Part shown: positions 21,085-26,688 of the stretch, piece by piece
How positions within the stretch are numbered: the stretch's first letter is position 1
Layout: each line of letters starts with the position of its first letter
NCBI GenBank assembly: GCA_946410085.1
Contig: CAMJZA010000027.1
Span: 1 to 42,678, forward strand
Origin: an uncultured Treponema sp.
GTDB lineage: Bacteria > Spirochaetota > Spirochaetia > Treponematales > Treponemataceae
Length of the DNA: 42,678 nucleotides
Reading direction: 5' to 3'
The notes under the pieces: model-generated
Seen by the model: only the letters and a program-made list of their open reading frames with translations
What the model was told of the DNA's origin: nothing
The model's database searches: none
Position numbers and translations under genes: made by a program

Positions 21085-21888
21085 TTATTTGACCTTTCCC
21101 TTTTCGATGGCAGAAACGGTGAACATATTGTCATCAACTGCCATGTTGTACTTGACGTTCCGCATCTCAAGCAGGGTCATGTGATCCGTCTTGACGTTCC
21201 GCATGAACATCTTTCCAACCGTCCAGATTCCGTCAATTTTCGTAATGTCGGAACAGCTTAGGACACGGGTCAAGGTATTCTGCTTGTCATAATACTCCCC
21301 CTTAACGGCCTTGTAGCTTTCCTTCGCGTACCAGATGACTCGGCGCTGGGTTTTCTCGCTTTTATCCTTTGCGATGGATTCAACCATCCAGCACGCCATG
21401 CCGTCAACAGAATCCTCCCCGAGCAAGGTGAACGTATCCTTCGTAAGGCCGCGATCTCCCATGTCTGCATAGGTAAAGTCAGTTCCCATGAAATCATCAT
21501 CCTTCCCGCTGCCGGAAATCCGGCGGACTTTCTTCATGGCAGGCATATACAGCCAGCTGTCGGAATCCTTTTTCGTACCGTCATCATTATCAGGGTAATC
21601 GTGTGAAAGGTACGATACGCCGGCAACATCCTTCGGCCTGGCAAATACAATGACCGACTTCTTCACATCCCCGTAATCTTTGGACCGCATGAAAATCTCC
21701 CGGATCCGGGTCTCTCCCTTCCTGTTCGTCAGCGTCATCGTAGCCGTGTAGGAGCTGGTTTCCCCCTTGTCCACCGCATCCGCCCGCCGTGCAATTTCAT
21801 AGCCCGTCAGCTCTTCCGCCGCACACAGGCTTCCCGCAGCAAGGAGCAGCGCTCCTGCCAGACCTTTTGCAAACTGTGAAAACTTCAT
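21085..21888 (-). CDS. LolA-like outer-membrane lipoprotein-sorting protein
   Basis: The 267-residue product has a signal peptide (GLAGALLLAAGSLCAAEE) and the typical start of this family (YEIARRADAVDKGETSSYTATMTL), with KDVAGVSYLSHDYPD and DSWLYMPAMKKVRRI following. Such periplasmic LolA-fold proteins are found beside MMPL/RND exporters, as here, and are thought to carry lipid or lipid-linked cargo between exporter and outer membrane. GGAGG lies 5-6 nt before the ATG. It is the second gene of a two-gene operon, 41 nt after the exporter. The cargo is unknown. Confidence 0.85.
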   Translation of the reverse strand: MKFSQFAKGLAGALLLAAGSLCAAEELTGYEIARRADAVDKGETSSYTATMTLTNRKGETRIREIFMRSKDYGDVKKSVIVFARPKDVAGVSYLSHDYPDNDDGTKKDSDSWLYMPAMKKVRRISGSGKDDDFMGTDFTYADMGDRGLTKDTFTLLGEDSVDGMACWMVESIAKDKSEKTQRRVIWYAKESYKAVKGEYYDKQNTLTRVLSCSDITKIDGIWTVGKMFMRNVKTDHMTLLEMRNVKYNMAVDDNMFTVSAIEKGKVK

Positions 21889-21929
21889 GATTTCCTCCTG
21901 TATATGATATGTTGCTGTGTTTCAGAATG

Positions 21930-24278
21930 CTATTTCTTCGCTTTTCCCAGGGGCCTGAACAGGTAGAGCAATGCGGGAGTCAGCGTATAGTCCGCAAGCA
22001 ATGCCGCACTCAGTCCGACAATCGAAAGAAGGCCAACCCTGAACATTGCCGTAATGGGGCTGAAGCAGTACATCAGGAACATGGCACACAGGATGACCGT
22101 CGTCGTTCCCATTGTCTTTCCGATTTCGCGGAATGTTTCCCTGATGGCAGCAGCATAATCCTTTCCGGCCTCCAGTTTCGCTTTTATATGGTTGGAAAAG
22201 TGAATGGTATCATCAACCGCAATTCCCAGAATCATCGGCATAATCATCATCGTCACTTCATCAAGCGCCATGCGGGCATATCCCATGACCGCACCAATCA
22301 GGAATACCGGGGCAAGGTTCGGAATCATCGCAATAAGTCCAGTCCGTATGCTGGCAAACACGATGATAAGCAGGATGGCAATCATCAGGAACGACGAACC
22401 GAATGACTTCAGCTCGCTTATAACGATAGTCGCATTCATGGCTGCATTCTGGGCAACCGTTCCAACAACAGAGACTTTCGCACCGGGGAAATAGCGGCGG
22501 GCAGCCTCCTCTGCACGGGTAATGTCCTCCACGATGATATTCGCGTTATAGTCGAATATCTCAACATGCACATGCGCCGCATTATAGCTTTCCGTCAGAT
22601 CATCATACAGGCTTGCACTGTCGGAAATCTCATAGAAGAACAAGAGCTGCGTCAGCATATCCCGGTCATCGGGAATGACATAATAGGCAGGATCATCCTC
22701 ATTGAGGACCCGGTACATCTCCTTGACCATCCGGGTAACGGACTTAACGCGGGGTTTTCCGTTGCTTATCTTCGTCATGCGGAGCTTTCCCAGTTCCCCT
22801 TCCAGGTTATCCATCGCCTTCATGACCGCAGGATCCTTAAAGGCATCAGGCTCGTCAAACTCTATCATCACGTCATAGCTGTACAAGGTGCCGAGGTTCG
22901 TCTCAAGCACTTCCTCTATCCGGTGTACAAACGGAACCTTGCTTCCCATGAACTTGAGGTAGTCCATATTCACTTCCATCTTCAGGAGGCCGGGAATGCA
23001 GGCCAGTATCACGATTGCTGAAATGACGGCAACAAAAGCGCTCTTCTGCACGATATGGCCGCCAAAGCGTTCAAACGCAAGGTCTGCCTTTGTCGCTCCG
23101 GTGCGCTCACGGTCAGTCACGACAGGCTCCGCATCCTTGCCGAAGCTCATGAAGATGGGAATAAGAATCACCACGTAGAGGTACACCATGAACACGACGC
23201 TGGCGGCAACCGCTCCAAGCCATACCATAGGACGGATGCAGGCAAACAGGAACGAAAGGAGGGATGCCATTGTCGTAATGACCGTAAAGAGGATGGGCCA
23301 GCCGGATTCCTCTACGGAACAGATGACGGACTCATAGCGTTTTCCCGTACGGCGGAAATGCAGCTTAAAGGCATTGATGTAGTGCAGTGCGTATCCGATG
23401 GAAAGGGCCATTCCCAGTAGAACGGGAAGGGACATCAGGTCGGAATCTGCCGGGATATTCAGCAGGCCGGTGAACCCCAAGACCGTACCGATGCCGAACA
23501 TCGTTGCCACAAAGGGAACAATGATGCCGCGGAAGGAACGGACGAATATGATGAGGCAGATAAGCATCGTCACAAAACCAAGCATGAGCCTGACGGCAAA
23601 ATCATGGCCGACCGTATCTGTTTTTTCAGCCGTCGTATAGGCGCTGCCGATAGGCTTCAGGCTCCACTCCCCGCTCTTGAACTCGTCGCTCATGATAACC
23701 TTTTGTGCTGCATGGCCGACCGTAAGGACATCCGTGCTTTCATCCTGAAAGGGCGTCAGCTTCAGGATAATCCAGGTTTCCTTCGCATCGTCCGAAACAA
23801 GGTTATTTACGATGGACTCCCTGCCCATAATAAAGGTCTTCTTTTCCGCAAGTTCCTCCGGGTCAGACGGAATGCCGTCCTCAAAGGGACTTTTTACCTC
23901 AAGACCTCCGTCAATCCCGATGGGAATCGTAACGGTCGTAAGGGACGTTACCTTATCTGCAAAGGGAACTTCCAGCTCAAGGCGTTCCCCCAACCGGTCT
24001 ATCATGGAAAGCACATCGGGAACAAACACATCATCCGCCTGCACAAGGACCATGACAAACTGGTCGTTTCCGAACAGGTCCTTATAGTGGTCAGAGTTTA
24101 CCTGGATTTCGCTTCCATTTACAATCCAGTCTTCATTATTGCTTTCCGAACGGAAATTCCTGAAGCCCGACAGGCAGACCAAGGTAACGGCAAGCAGACC
24201 GATAAGGAAAACCCAGCGGTACCTGATCTGAACCTCACCGACTTTTCGAAAGAACATATTGATTCGAGAGACTTTCAT
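21930..24278 (-). CDS. MMPL/RND-family exporter
   Basis: The product (782 residues from ATG 24278, with AGGAGG 4 nt upstream) has the two-fold RND layout. TM1 (WVFLIGLLAVTLVCL), a large periplasmic loop, five further helices, then a central cytoplasmic segment (DRERTGATKADLAFERFGG) separate the halves. The second half repeats TM, loop and helices, with RTGLIAMIPNLAPVFLIGAVMGY and GIAVDDTIHFSNH. The first half has SLPVLLGMALSIGYALHYINAF at the matching place. These exporters use the proton gradient to move lipids or hydrophobic compounds. The LolA-like protein encoded next is the expected periplasmic partner. The longer in-frame start at 24302 lacks a ribosome binding site. Confidence 0.88.
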   Translation of the reverse strand: MKVSRINMFFRKVGEVQIRYRWVFLIGLLAVTLVCLSGFRNFRSESNNEDWIVNGSEIQVNSDHYKDLFGNDQFVMVLVQADDVFVPDVLSMIDRLGERLELEVPFADKVTSLTTVTIPIGIDGGLEVKSPFEDGIPSDPEELAEKKTFIMGRESIVNNLVSDDAKETWIILKLTPFQDESTDVLTVGHAAQKVIMSDEFKSGEWSLKPIGSAYTTAEKTDTVGHDFAVRLMLGFVTMLICLIIFVRSFRGIIVPFVATMFGIGTVLGFTGLLNIPADSDLMSLPVLLGMALSIGYALHYINAFKLHFRRTGKRYESVICSVEESGWPILFTVITTMASLLSFLFACIRPMVWLGAVAASVVFMVYLYVVILIPIFMSFGKDAEPVVTDRERTGATKADLAFERFGGHIVQKSAFVAVISAIVILACIPGLLKMEVNMDYLKFMGSKVPFVHRIEEVLETNLGTLYSYDVMIEFDEPDAFKDPAVMKAMDNLEGELGKLRMTKISNGKPRVKSVTRMVKEMYRVLNEDDPAYYVIPDDRDMLTQLLFFYEISDSASLYDDLTESYNAAHVHVEIFDYNANIIVEDITRAEEAARRYFPGAKVSVVGTVAQNAAMNATIVISELKSFGSSFLMIAILLIIVFASIRTGLIAMIPNLAPVFLIGAVMGYARMALDEVTMMIMPMILGIAVDDTIHFSNHIKAKLEAGKDYAAAIRETFREIGKTMGTTTVILCAMFLMYCFSPITAMFRVGLLSIVGLSAALLADYTLTPALLYLFRPLGKAKK

Positions 24279-24306
24279 ACAACCTCCTGTAATGACATGC
24301 ATTGGT

Positions 24307-24439: not shown

Positions 24440-25975
24440 ATGAACCTGTTCCTAAAGTTCAGGGAGACGGCGGCTTCCGTCCTTCCCATTACCGCAATCG
24501 TCACCCTCCTCTCCCTGACCTTCGCTCCCCTGGGGGCAGGCCTGACCGTCCGCTTCATACTGAGCGGCATCTTTGTCATCATCGGACTGACGCTCCTGCT
24601 CGCCGGTGTTGACCTGGGCATAACGCCGATCGGAGAGCGGAGCGGTGCCGCCCTGACGGCAAAGCGCAGCCTGCCCCTGCTCCTTTCGGTTTCGTTTGTC
24701 ATAGGCCTGCTCGTCACGATTGCCGAGCCGGACGTGCAGGTACTTGCCGCCCAGATACAGGGCGTTTCTCCCGCCGTCAACAAGTGGACCCTCGTCATAC
24801 TGATTGCCGTCGGCATCGGTCTTTTCATGGTACTGGGCCTTCTGCGCACCATCCTGTCCCTGCGCCTGAACGTTCTCCTCATCGCCTGCTACATCGTCCT
24901 ATTCATCCTCGCCTTCTGTGCTCCCGTGGAATTCCAGGGCGTCGCCTTTGACGCAGGAGGGGCAACGACAGGCCCCATGACGGTGCCCTTCATCATGGCA
25001 CTGGGCATCGGCGTCGCGTCCGTCCGGTCCAAGGGGCACGGCAGGAACGGCGGCGGCAATCAGGGGGACGAATCATTCGGCCTGACCGGCATTGCCTCCA
25101 TAGGCCCTGTCGCCGCCGTCTGCGTCTACGGCATCATCCTCTCACACACTCCCGCCGCCGCAGGAAGCGCAGCTGAAAATGCAGCGGTCGGCATTGTTGA
25201 TGCATCGTTTAACCCGAAGCTCTTTCTGGACCTGCTTCCCCACGTTACAAGGGAAGTCTGCCTCGCCCTCCTGCCGCTGATCCTCCTGTGCGCAGCATTC
25301 CAGCTCTTCCTGCTCAAAATGCCGCCCGCCCAGGTCCGCCGCATGCTCAAGGGACTCCTCTACAGCTTCATCGGTCTCGTGATTTTCCTTATCGGGACAA
25401 ACGGCGGCTTCATGCCCGCCGGTGAAAAACTCGGGCTTATCCTCGGCGGCTACGCTGCCGGCGGAAGCCGCGCCTACCTCCTGCTGCTCACCTTCACCGG
25501 CATGCTCTTCGGGGCCGTCGTCGTCTGCGCCGAACCGGCAGTCTGGGTCCTCACCGAACAGGTGGAACAGGTTTCCGGCGGCGTCATAAAGCGCAACCTC
25601 ATGCTCGCCGCCCTTTCCTGCGGTGTTGCCCTTTCCATCGGCCTGAGCATGCTCCGCATTCTGTACGGCTTCAGCCTCTGGTGGATCCTGATCCCCGGCT
25701 ATGCCCTCTCGCTGCTGCTCTCGCTTGCCTGCCCGCCACTGTTTGTGGGCATCGCATTCGACTCCGGGGGCGTCGCCTCCGGCCCCATGACAAGTACCTT
25801 TATCCTCTCCTTTACCCTCGGCGTTGCTGCGGCTTCCGGAAGGCAGGGAGGAGCAGAAATGGCGTTCGGGGTAATCGCCCTCGTTGCGATGACCCCGCTC
25901 ATAGCAATACAGCTGCTCGGCATCGTATTCAGGCACAAGAGCAGCAGAAAGAAAGGGGAGGCCGTAGCCGGATGA
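24440..25975 (+). CDS. DUF1538 integral membrane protein, internally duplicated
   Basis: The 511-residue protein has about twelve hydrophobic segments. Two halves repeat the same signatures: AEPDVQVLAAQI with FDAGGATTGPMTVPFIM in the first, and AEPAVWVLTEQV with FDSGGVASGPMTSTFIL in the second. The AEPxVxVL and FDxGGxxxGPM motifs sit where transporter re-entrant loops or substrate sites would be expected. DUF1538 proteins have no assigned substrate. The stop overlaps the start of a tandem PII-like gene by ATGA, implying translational coupling and a regulated complex. PII proteins classically control transporters such as AmtB, so a nucleotide- or second-messenger-gated transporter is a reasonable inference. 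Confidence 0.88.
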   Translation: MNLFLKFRETAASVLPITAIVTLLSLTFAPLGAGLTVRFILSGIFVIIGLTLLLAGVDLGITPIGERSGAALTAKRSLPLLLSVSFVIGLLVTIAEPDVQVLAAQIQGVSPAVNKWTLVILIAVGIGLFMVLGLLRTILSLRLNVLLIACYIVLFILAFCAPVEFQGVAFDAGGATTGPMTVPFIMALGIGVASVRSKGHGRNGGGNQGDESFGLTGIASIGPVAAVCVYGIILSHTPAAAGSAAENAAVGIVDASFNPKLFLDLLPHVTREVCLALLPLILLCAAFQLFLLKMPPAQVRRMLKGLLYSFIGLVIFLIGTNGGFMPAGEKLGLILGGYAAGGSRAYLLLLTFTGMLFGAVVVCAEPAVWVLTEQVEQVSGGVIKRNLMLAALSCGVALSIGLSMLRILYGFSLWWILIPGYALSLLLSLACPPLFVGIAFDSGGVASGPMTSTFILSFTLGVAAASGRQGGAEMAFGVIALVAMTPLIAIQLLGIVFRHKSSRKKGEAVAG

Positions 25976-26688
25976 GTGCATTCAAGCTGCTGTTCGTCAA
26001 CGTACCGCACGGAAAATCAGAGCTCGTTTCCAGGGCTGCCGTTCAGGCAGGCAGCTTCGGAGGAACCGTCGCACTGGGCAGGGGCATAAGCCCCAGCGCC
26101 CTGCTGTCTGCCCTCGGATTCGGGGACAGCACCCGGGACATCCTGATTATCCTGTCGGCGGGATGGGAATACCTGCCGATCTGTCAGGCAATAGAAGAAG
26201 CCTGCAGGCAGGAAAAGAAGGCCTTCGGCCAGCTGCTTGTACTCGATGCCGACGGCATGGCCAAAAGCGGCACCCCCTTCAGCACAGGGGAGACGGGAAA
26301 AACAGGAAGCACAGGAGGAGCAGACATGGAACAGAAAGCAACTATACCGGAACAGAACGGGGAAAAGGCGAGACAGGCTTCGCTGAGCCTGATTACGGTC
26401 GTGCTGAACAAGGGCTATGCCGATGACGCCATGGCGGCCGCACGCAAGGCAGGAGCCGGCGGCGGAACGGTGATAAACGCCCGGGGAACGGCACGGGAAG
26501 ACGATGCCAAGTTCTTCGGCGTACACATCGTTCCCGAGAAAGAAATGCTCATGATCGTGGTTCCGCAGGAAAAGCGCGATGCTGTCCTTGAGGCAGTACG
26601 AACCCTCCCCTGCCTGGCAGAACCTGGCAGCGGCATTGCATTCTCCGCCCCCGTCGAAAACTTCACGCAGCTCGGGAAAAGCAGCTGA
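25972..26688 (+). CDS. Tandem PII-like signalling protein
   Basis: The 238-residue protein contains two ferredoxin-like PII-type units. Unit 1 (about 1-92) runs KLLFVNVPHGKSELVS, GGTVALGRG and ends RQEKKAFGQLLVL. Unit 2 (about 138-232) runs LITVVLNKGYADDAM, GGGTVINARGTA, FFGVHIVPEKEMLMIVV, with KRDAVLEAV near its end. The linker (95-135) is Gly/Thr-rich. The GGTVxxxRG turn is the PII position preceding the T-loop; a canonical T-loop tyrosine is not evident. Canonical PII proteins are about 112-residue trimers, so a two-unit chain would pack differently. The start ATG overlaps the DUF1538 stop. Its likely role is sensing nucleotides and gating the DUF1538 protein; this is inferred from coupling and family. 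Confidence 0.8.
   Translation: MSAFKLLFVNVPHGKSELVSRAAVQAGSFGGTVALGRGISPSALLSALGFGDSTRDILIILSAGWEYLPICQAIEEACRQEKKAFGQLLVLDADGMAKSGTPFSTGETGKTGSTGGADMEQKATIPEQNGEKARQASLSLITVVLNKGYADDAMAAARKAGAGGGTVINARGTAREDDAKFFGVHIVPEKEMLMIVVPQEKRDAVLEAVRTLPCLAEPGSGIAFSAPVENFTQLGKSS

Follow-up and report, generated by a model that had tools for sequence, protein, structure and literature searches.

The only characterised pair of DUF1538 proteins is UmpAB of Halomonas zhaodongensis, a heterodimer that acts as an Na+(Li+,K+)/H+ antiporter with K0.5 values of 0.26 to 0.46 mM and an optimum at pH 9 (PMC5484666). Seven segments are predicted by the authors of that study for UmpA and for UmpB, both proteins are required for full salt tolerance, and the two together restored salt tolerance to E. 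coli from a construct that is described without any PII gene; the paper makes no mention of PII proteins (PMC5484666).

That DUF1538 proteins can be antiporters is already known, as is the role of PII proteins as regulators of transporters. To our knowledge, PII proteins gate only a few transporter families. The AmtB-GlnK complex is a trimer on a trimer. The SbtA-SbtB complex is also a trimer on a trimer, built with single-unit PII chains, and in both systems the T-loop of the PII protein enters the transporter from the cytoplasm, that of GlnK blocking the exit of AmtB (PMC8352866). PII-NG proteins are non-canonical, single-unit PII proteins encoded beside a proton-driven cation exporter, the RND pump CzcABC/CusA (PMC7726332).

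The window analysed here, a stretch of 42,678 nucleotides from a rumen-type Treponema, carries a DUF1538 gene (gene A) that adjoins a gene for a PII-like protein (gene B); both open reading frames were found where the earlier note had placed them. Gene A is of the same family as UmpAB, and the UmpA-then-UmpB order of that system matches the order of the two halves of gene A. However, UmpAB consists of two chains that are fused in gene A, the scores of gene A are far below the equivalog cut-offs, and a PII gene adjoins gene A, whereas the UmpAB paper is without a PII partner (PMC5484666). The pair is like AmtB-GlnK in that a transporter gene adjoins a PII gene, but DUF1538 is unrelated to Amt by sequence, and gene B has tandem fused units that lack Q39, Y51, K90, R101, and R103. 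Like SbtA-SbtB (PMC8352866), the pair is a two-gene unit of a probable cation-coupled, inverted-repeat transporter and a putative T-loop regulator of the PII-like type. In contrast to the trimers of SbtA-SbtB, the pair has transporter halves that are predicted to be antiparallel and a partner with one, two, or three PII units per chain, and we found nothing in sequence that relates SbtA to DUF1538. Like PII-NG, gene B is a non-canonical PII gene beside a probable proton-driven cation transporter, but the partner is a DUF1538 protein rather than an RND pump and the PII protein is not of the single-unit kind. A PG0541-type NCBIfam model matches the C-terminal unit of gene B below its cutoff.

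In the open-access literature, a scope that leaves out most subscription journals, we found no tie between DUF1538 and PII, nor any account of the series of PII units, of an antiparallel or dual-topology anatomy, or of the loss of canonical PII residues described below. Database records already annotate the adjoining genes as "DUF1538" and as "P-II family nitrogen regulator," and the adjacency is therefore visible there, though perhaps undiscussed.

The two genes and their products

The features of the locus are summarized in Table 1. The ATG of gene B lies within the stop of gene A, which confirms the ATGA overlap (25972-25975) described in the earlier note and the translational coupling of the two genes, and ten bases separate the GGGGAGG sequence from this ATG. 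Two genes on the - strand (window positions 21085-24302) are divergent from the pair. By eye only, one of them, encoding a 790-aa membrane protein, has the look of an RND/MMPL-type exporter, and the other, encoding a 267-aa protein, that of an outer-membrane lipoprotein-sorting protein.

Table 1. Positions of genes, domains, and motifs at the DUF1538-PII locus, numbered along the window
Feature	Position	Strand	Remarks
Gene A, DUF1538 membrane protein with fused UmpA-like and UmpB-like halves	24440..25975	+	511 aa
First DUF1538 half, residues 1-262	24440..25225	+	N-terminus predicted inside
AEPDVQVLAAQ motif, residues 95-105	24722..24754	+	Helix break (predicted helices 78-94 and 97-109)
FDAGGATTGPM motif, residues 170-184	24947..24991	+	Helix break (predicted helices 163-175 and 181-199)
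Second DUF1538 half, residues 263-511	25226..25972	+	Predicted opposite orientation, C-terminus inside
AEPAVWVL motif, second half, residues 364-371	25529..25552	+	
FDSGGVASGPM motif, second half, residues 440-450	25757..25789	+	
Likely ribosome-binding site of gene B, GGGGAGG	25955..25961	+	Read from sequence
Gene B, tandem PII-like protein	25972..26688	+	238 aa
N-terminal PII-like unit, residues 3-100	25978..26271	+	Profile comparison, AF2
Low-confidence linker between PII-like units, residues 101-136	26272..26379	+	AF2
C-terminal PII-like unit, residues 137-238	26380..26685	+	Conserved GGGTVINARGT, short T-loop ending PEKE

The Pfam DUF1538 model (PF07556) matches gene A in two stretches (410.7 bits against a gathering cut-off of 22.6, E 1.2e-123), one half of the protein is 33.5% identical to the other over 212 residues (blastp E 2e-26), and profile-profile alignment pairs the halves with 100% probability. 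The internal duplication proposed in the earlier note is thus borne out by all three comparisons, and the repeated motifs that it named are also present, as AEPDVQVL/AEPAVWVL and FDAGGATTGPM/FDSGGVASGPM. Among 76 aligned sequences, E96, P97, E365, P366, and D441 are invariant and D171 is nearly so. In NCBIfam, the UmpA model (NF041627) fits best in the first half (179.1 bits, E 9e-53, with an equivalog cut-off of 490) and the UmpB model (NF041628) in the second (137.2 bits, E 6e-40, with a cut-off of 500). As judged from these scores, gene A is a relative of UmpAB that falls below the equivalog cut-offs, and not UmpAB itself.

The AF2 model of gene A (pLDDT 93.7, pTM 0.92) has about seven membrane segments per half, two of which are broken, at the AEP and at the GG-TTGP or GG-ASGP motifs. 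The twelve helices counted in the earlier note have therefore given way to about 7 + 7 segments, several of them broken. A PDB sequence search with gene A, profile included, returned no match, and a Foldseek search with the model returned none under an E value of 0.001. The best VIA match of the model is CLC-7 (Z 5.5, rmsd 6.0 over 192), and NCX_Mj reaches a Z of 4.7; we rejected both as fold relatives of DUF1538, since Z values of this size are within chance for helical bundles. The want of a clear match among solved structures does not show that the modelled fold is new.

The orientation of the halves was approached from loop counts of Lys and Arg (K/R bias), with the loops defined on the window protein. 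In fused DUF1538 proteins the bias is +7.0 in the first half and -6.8 in the second, and when fused and split proteins are taken together the sign is positive in 153 of 153 first halves and negative in 152 of 153 second halves. Because the biases are opposite, the positive-inside rule suggests that the two halves are antiparallel in the membrane, and this charge distribution is the basis of the membrane orientation that we propose for gene A. In the nine stand-alone halves, the internal-loop bias is close to zero (-0.6), as is typical of dual-topology proteins, compared with +3.0 and -2.4 in the halves of split pairs. It is possible that stand-alone halves are dual-topology homodimers that behave like EmrE or Fluc, but this is only a lead, because there are only nine of them and their N-terminal tails move the total bias to +2.0.

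In gene B, the Pfam P-II model (PF00543) finds the C-terminal unit alone (residues 140-231, 30.6 bits against 25, E 4.6e-7). The N-terminal (N) and C-terminal (C) units, which are too diverged for blastp, align in hhalign with 99.9% probability over 98 columns. When a profile built from 63 tandem relatives was compared with solved PII chains, the N unit (profile positions 2-102) matched GlnB chains (3o8w, E 4e-6; 3t9z, E 5e-6), the best being A. fulgidus GlnB-1 (3o8w), and the best match of the C unit was 9p1x_H (E 3e-8). In its AF2 model (pLDDT 84, pTM 0.79), gene B folds into two ferredoxin-like units with a linker of low confidence between them. The C unit superimposes on the PII protein 1hwu with a Z of 10.9 (rmsd 1.6 A over 84 residues), and its fold matches include the SbtB structure 6mmo (Z 9.9). 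In a structure search with the whole chain as the query, matches span residues 119-238, and the AmtB-GlnK complex 2ns1 is among the PII structure matches of gene B. Structure prediction thus gives the C unit a PII fold, as the earlier note had anticipated, and its reading of two PII-like units in one chain holds on the Pfam match for the C unit, the profile matches for the N unit, and the AF2 model.

Pairing and architecture across genomes

A tandem PII gene lies just 3' of DUF1538 in 78 of 80 close relatives of gene A in genome contigs, and the other two end at a contig edge. For a wider comparison, we used a sample of Spirochaetota, a sample of the Lachnospiraceae phylum centred on that family, a desulfovibrio-centred sample, and plasmids, with systems made non-redundant at 95%. 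This gave 192 non-redundant DUF1538 systems, 2 of which were ended by a contig edge, leaving 190 that could be assessed. A PII-like gene is directly downstream in 189 of the 190, with a median overlap of 4 bases, which is a conserved adjacency of transporter and PII gene like that of the AmtB-GlnK and SbtA-SbtB units. In the sole exception (G420) the PII gene is present but on a separate contig (C36, C77; L252, L290). This split is either a rearrangement or an assembly error.

Co-occurrence gives the same picture. In Spirochaetota, 40 genomes have both DUF1538 and the PII subfamily, 1 has the PII gene only, and 157 have neither; that is, the subfamily is in 40 of 40 DUF1538 genomes and absent from 157 of the 158 others. 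In the Lachnospiraceae-phylum sample, 100 genomes have both, 1 has DUF1538 only, 1 has the PII gene only, and 197 have neither (100 of 101 DUF1538 genomes with the subfamily, 197 of 198 others without it). Excluded from these last counts were four borderline PII matches near E 5e-7, which we took as canonical PII; a weak, sub-cutoff DUF1538 match in genome G055 was also left out of the counts. Fisher tests on co-occurrence treat genomes as unrelated. DUF1538 itself is present in about one-fifth of the Spirochaetota and about one-third of the Lachnospiraceae-phylum genomes sampled. On alphaproteobacterial plasmids the gene order is DUF1538, DUF1538, single P-II. Based on adjacency and co-occurrence, the DUF1538-PII pairing is near-obligate across phyla. 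The earlier note had named, as a finding that would refute it, DUF1538 genes that usually lack PII partners; instead, the pairing is a dedicated one, and the coupling is stronger than had been guessed. No neighbouring gene recurs widely around the pair outside Treponema, so the pair looks self-contained.

Both partners vary in architecture. The transporter is a single half in 9 of the 192 systems, a split pair in 38, and a fused chain in about 140. Single halves, which are 231-265 aa long (L214-L219, L177, L191, and L223), have one PII unit in 9 of 9 cases. Split pairs have one PII unit (18), two separate PII genes (6), or one two-unit chain (14). Most fused transporters (117, plus a few variants) are partnered by a two-unit chain; 19 have a chain of about 370 aa, and 1 has two genes. 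A fused transporter with a complete PII gene was never seen with fewer than two PII units. The third segment of the chains of about 370 aa is also PII-like (98.9% against the C unit, compared with 0.45% for an unrelated-profile control). The DUF1538 proteins adjoining these three-unit chains, which are 364-392 aa long (L193-L210, L287, and L288), are mostly longer, at 495-734 aa. We considered whether each DUF1538 half goes with one PII unit and rejected this as a rule, since it is broken both by the split pairs, with one, 1 + 1, or two units, and by the long fused chains, with mostly three. Apparent DUF1538-PII gene fusions in L063, L066, and L090 were also rejected, as the long open reading frames are read in a different frame from DUF1538.

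These architectures bear on the suggestion in the earlier note that a two-unit PII protein matches a two-fold membrane protein and that a 1:1 complex is therefore conceivable. If the halves are antiparallel, as the K/R bias indicates, the argument from symmetry fails, because the pseudo-two-fold axis would then lie in the plane of the membrane and there would be no two equivalent docking sites on the cytoplasmic side. The one-unit and three-unit PII partners speak against the same argument; a 1:1 complex may still form.

Ligand site of the PII-like protein

The assembly to which the window belongs has one DUF1538 gene and three PII matches. Besides gene B, these are L004, a GlnB-like protein, and L003 (G000:C17), in which an ammonium channel and a canonical-looking PII domain form one chain. 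We compared the N, C, and single units of the DUF1538-linked subfamily with E. coli GlnK and with the other two PII units of this genome. Nearly all units of the subfamily, whether N, C, or single, carry other residues at Q39, Y51, and K90, and most do so at R101/R103; the K90 position is I, V, or L in almost all. T29, G35, G87, and G89 are retained in most units. The replaced residues belong to the effector and modification sites of the canonical nitrogen PII proteins GlnB and GlnK. On the alignment, the canonical ATP/2-oxoglutarate residues are lost in the DUF1538-linked PII subfamily. These residues are replaced while the same genome keeps an Amt-PII fusion and a GlnB, which points to a distinct ligand site in gene B.

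The T-loop is shorter as well, by about six residues. Its conservation in the C unit is 2.9 bits, against 2.0 to 2.2 for the second helix and the B-loop, and extends over the GGT strand that precedes it and the EKE that closes it; G172 and E189-K190-E191 are also strongly conserved. Because the canonical residues are lost while the T-loop is among the best conserved regions of the C unit, the subfamily reads as one with a changed ligand and a fixed target. As to the ligand, c-di-AMP is possible for gene B in the window's genome, because a diadenylate cyclase domain is encoded there. As a ligand for the whole family it looks unlikely: the alphaproteobacterial pairs, those of Methylocystis and Chelativorans, belong to a phylum from which two control genomes, E. 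coli and Caulobacter, were searched for diadenylate cyclase, and it was absent from both.

A proposed gated antiporter and its alternatives

Based on the UmpA and UmpB matches and the antiport activity of UmpAB, we propose with moderate confidence that gene A exchanges cations for protons, by analogy with one distant characterised relative. The substrate, which the earlier note had left unnamed, can thus be given a candidate, since the only characterised family member is an Na+(Li+,K+)/H+ antiporter (PMC5484666). We consider it probable, at about 0.6, that gene A is a cation/proton antiporter gated by gene B, a dedicated PII protein with a diverged ligand. According to this model, gene A would be a DUF1538/UmpAB secondary transporter moving Na+ and/or K+ against H+, made of two homologous seven-segment halves in opposite orientation, each with two broken helices that would carry the conserved acidic residues (E96/D171 and E365/D441). 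Gene B would be its dedicated cytoplasmic regulator, binding a small molecule in the clefts between units, and its short conserved T-loop would hold the transporter shut or release it, for which GlnK on AmtB and SbtB on SbtA are precedents. A regulatory rather than essential role for the PII protein fits the salt tolerance conferred by UmpA and UmpB without a described PII. The idea in the earlier note of a self-contained, regulated transporter is supported, as are its PII fold and its dedicated pairing, and the outcome of both refuting conditions that it named was in its favour. Physical docking of gene B on gene A is suggested by analogy, as adjacency alone is no proof of binding, and it is not obvious how the trimer-on-trimer precedents would apply to a transporter made from two halves.

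The neighbourhood of the pair in Treponema suggests a different substrate. In 40 Treponema loci (L007 to L067), luxS is upstream of the pair, mostly at 3-55 bp on the same strand, usually with pfs nearby and in many cases birA too, and these genes may form a methyl-cycle operon with the pair in this lineage only. DUF1538 might then move an organic metabolite of the methyl cycle (an AI-2 precursor, homocysteine, or an adenosyl compound), with the PII protein sensing an adenosyl metabolite. We regard this as unlikely, as the link to luxS is seen only in Treponema and is missing from the window (the luxS gene of this genome is on another contig), the clostridial, desulfovibrio-like, and proteobacterial pairs are without luxS, and the only family member that has been assayed is a cation antiporter (PMC5484666). 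One Treponema-family genome, G091, has a tandem PII gene directly behind luxS (L289:3953-4564, in the order birA-PII-luxS-pfs) and no DUF1538. Since this neighbourhood equals that of DUF1538 in many Treponema, only the transporter appears to have been lost from a locus that normally carries the pair, and the remaining PII protein may act alone or be a relic.

The retention of this gene beside luxS and birA would also be expected if the PII-like protein were a separate signalling protein, controlling transcription or an enzyme and merely cotranscribed with a transporter that it does not gate. Canonical PII proteins do have many non-transporter targets. However, in two phylum samples each of the two families almost never occurs without the other, and few regions of the C unit are more conserved than the T-loop; we regard this reading, too, as unlikely. 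The nearly obligate partnership and the loss of canonical ligand residues could instead mean that the antiporter needs the PII-like units for its assembly or stability, as a structural subunit that senses no ligand. This, too, is less likely than gating, and improbable in itself, as UmpA and UmpB alone restored the salt tolerance of E. coli (PMC5484666), and since T29, G35, and the B-loop glycines are mostly kept and G172 and E189-K190-E191 are strongly conserved, the site in gene B appears to have been changed rather than abandoned.

If the gated antiporter model is correct, a whole family of cation/proton antiporters would have a near-obligate PII partner, placing ion and pH homeostasis under PII control. 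DUF1538 gains a testable regulator that was missed by the only functional paper on the family (PMC5484666). More tentatively, DUF1538 may be a transporter architecture with no relative of solved structure that passed from dual-topology homodimers, by way of UmpA/UmpB heterodimers, to fused antiparallel chains, gated throughout by a new-ligand PII subfamily of its own. The chains of that subfamily would have grown from one unit to two and then to three, and the three-unit chain may be a covalent PII trimer. Such a system would link a metabolite or nucleotide to Na+/K+-proton exchange in many anaerobes. With one, two, or three PII units alongside half, split, or fused transporters, the family is a natural experiment in how symmetric partners become covalent.
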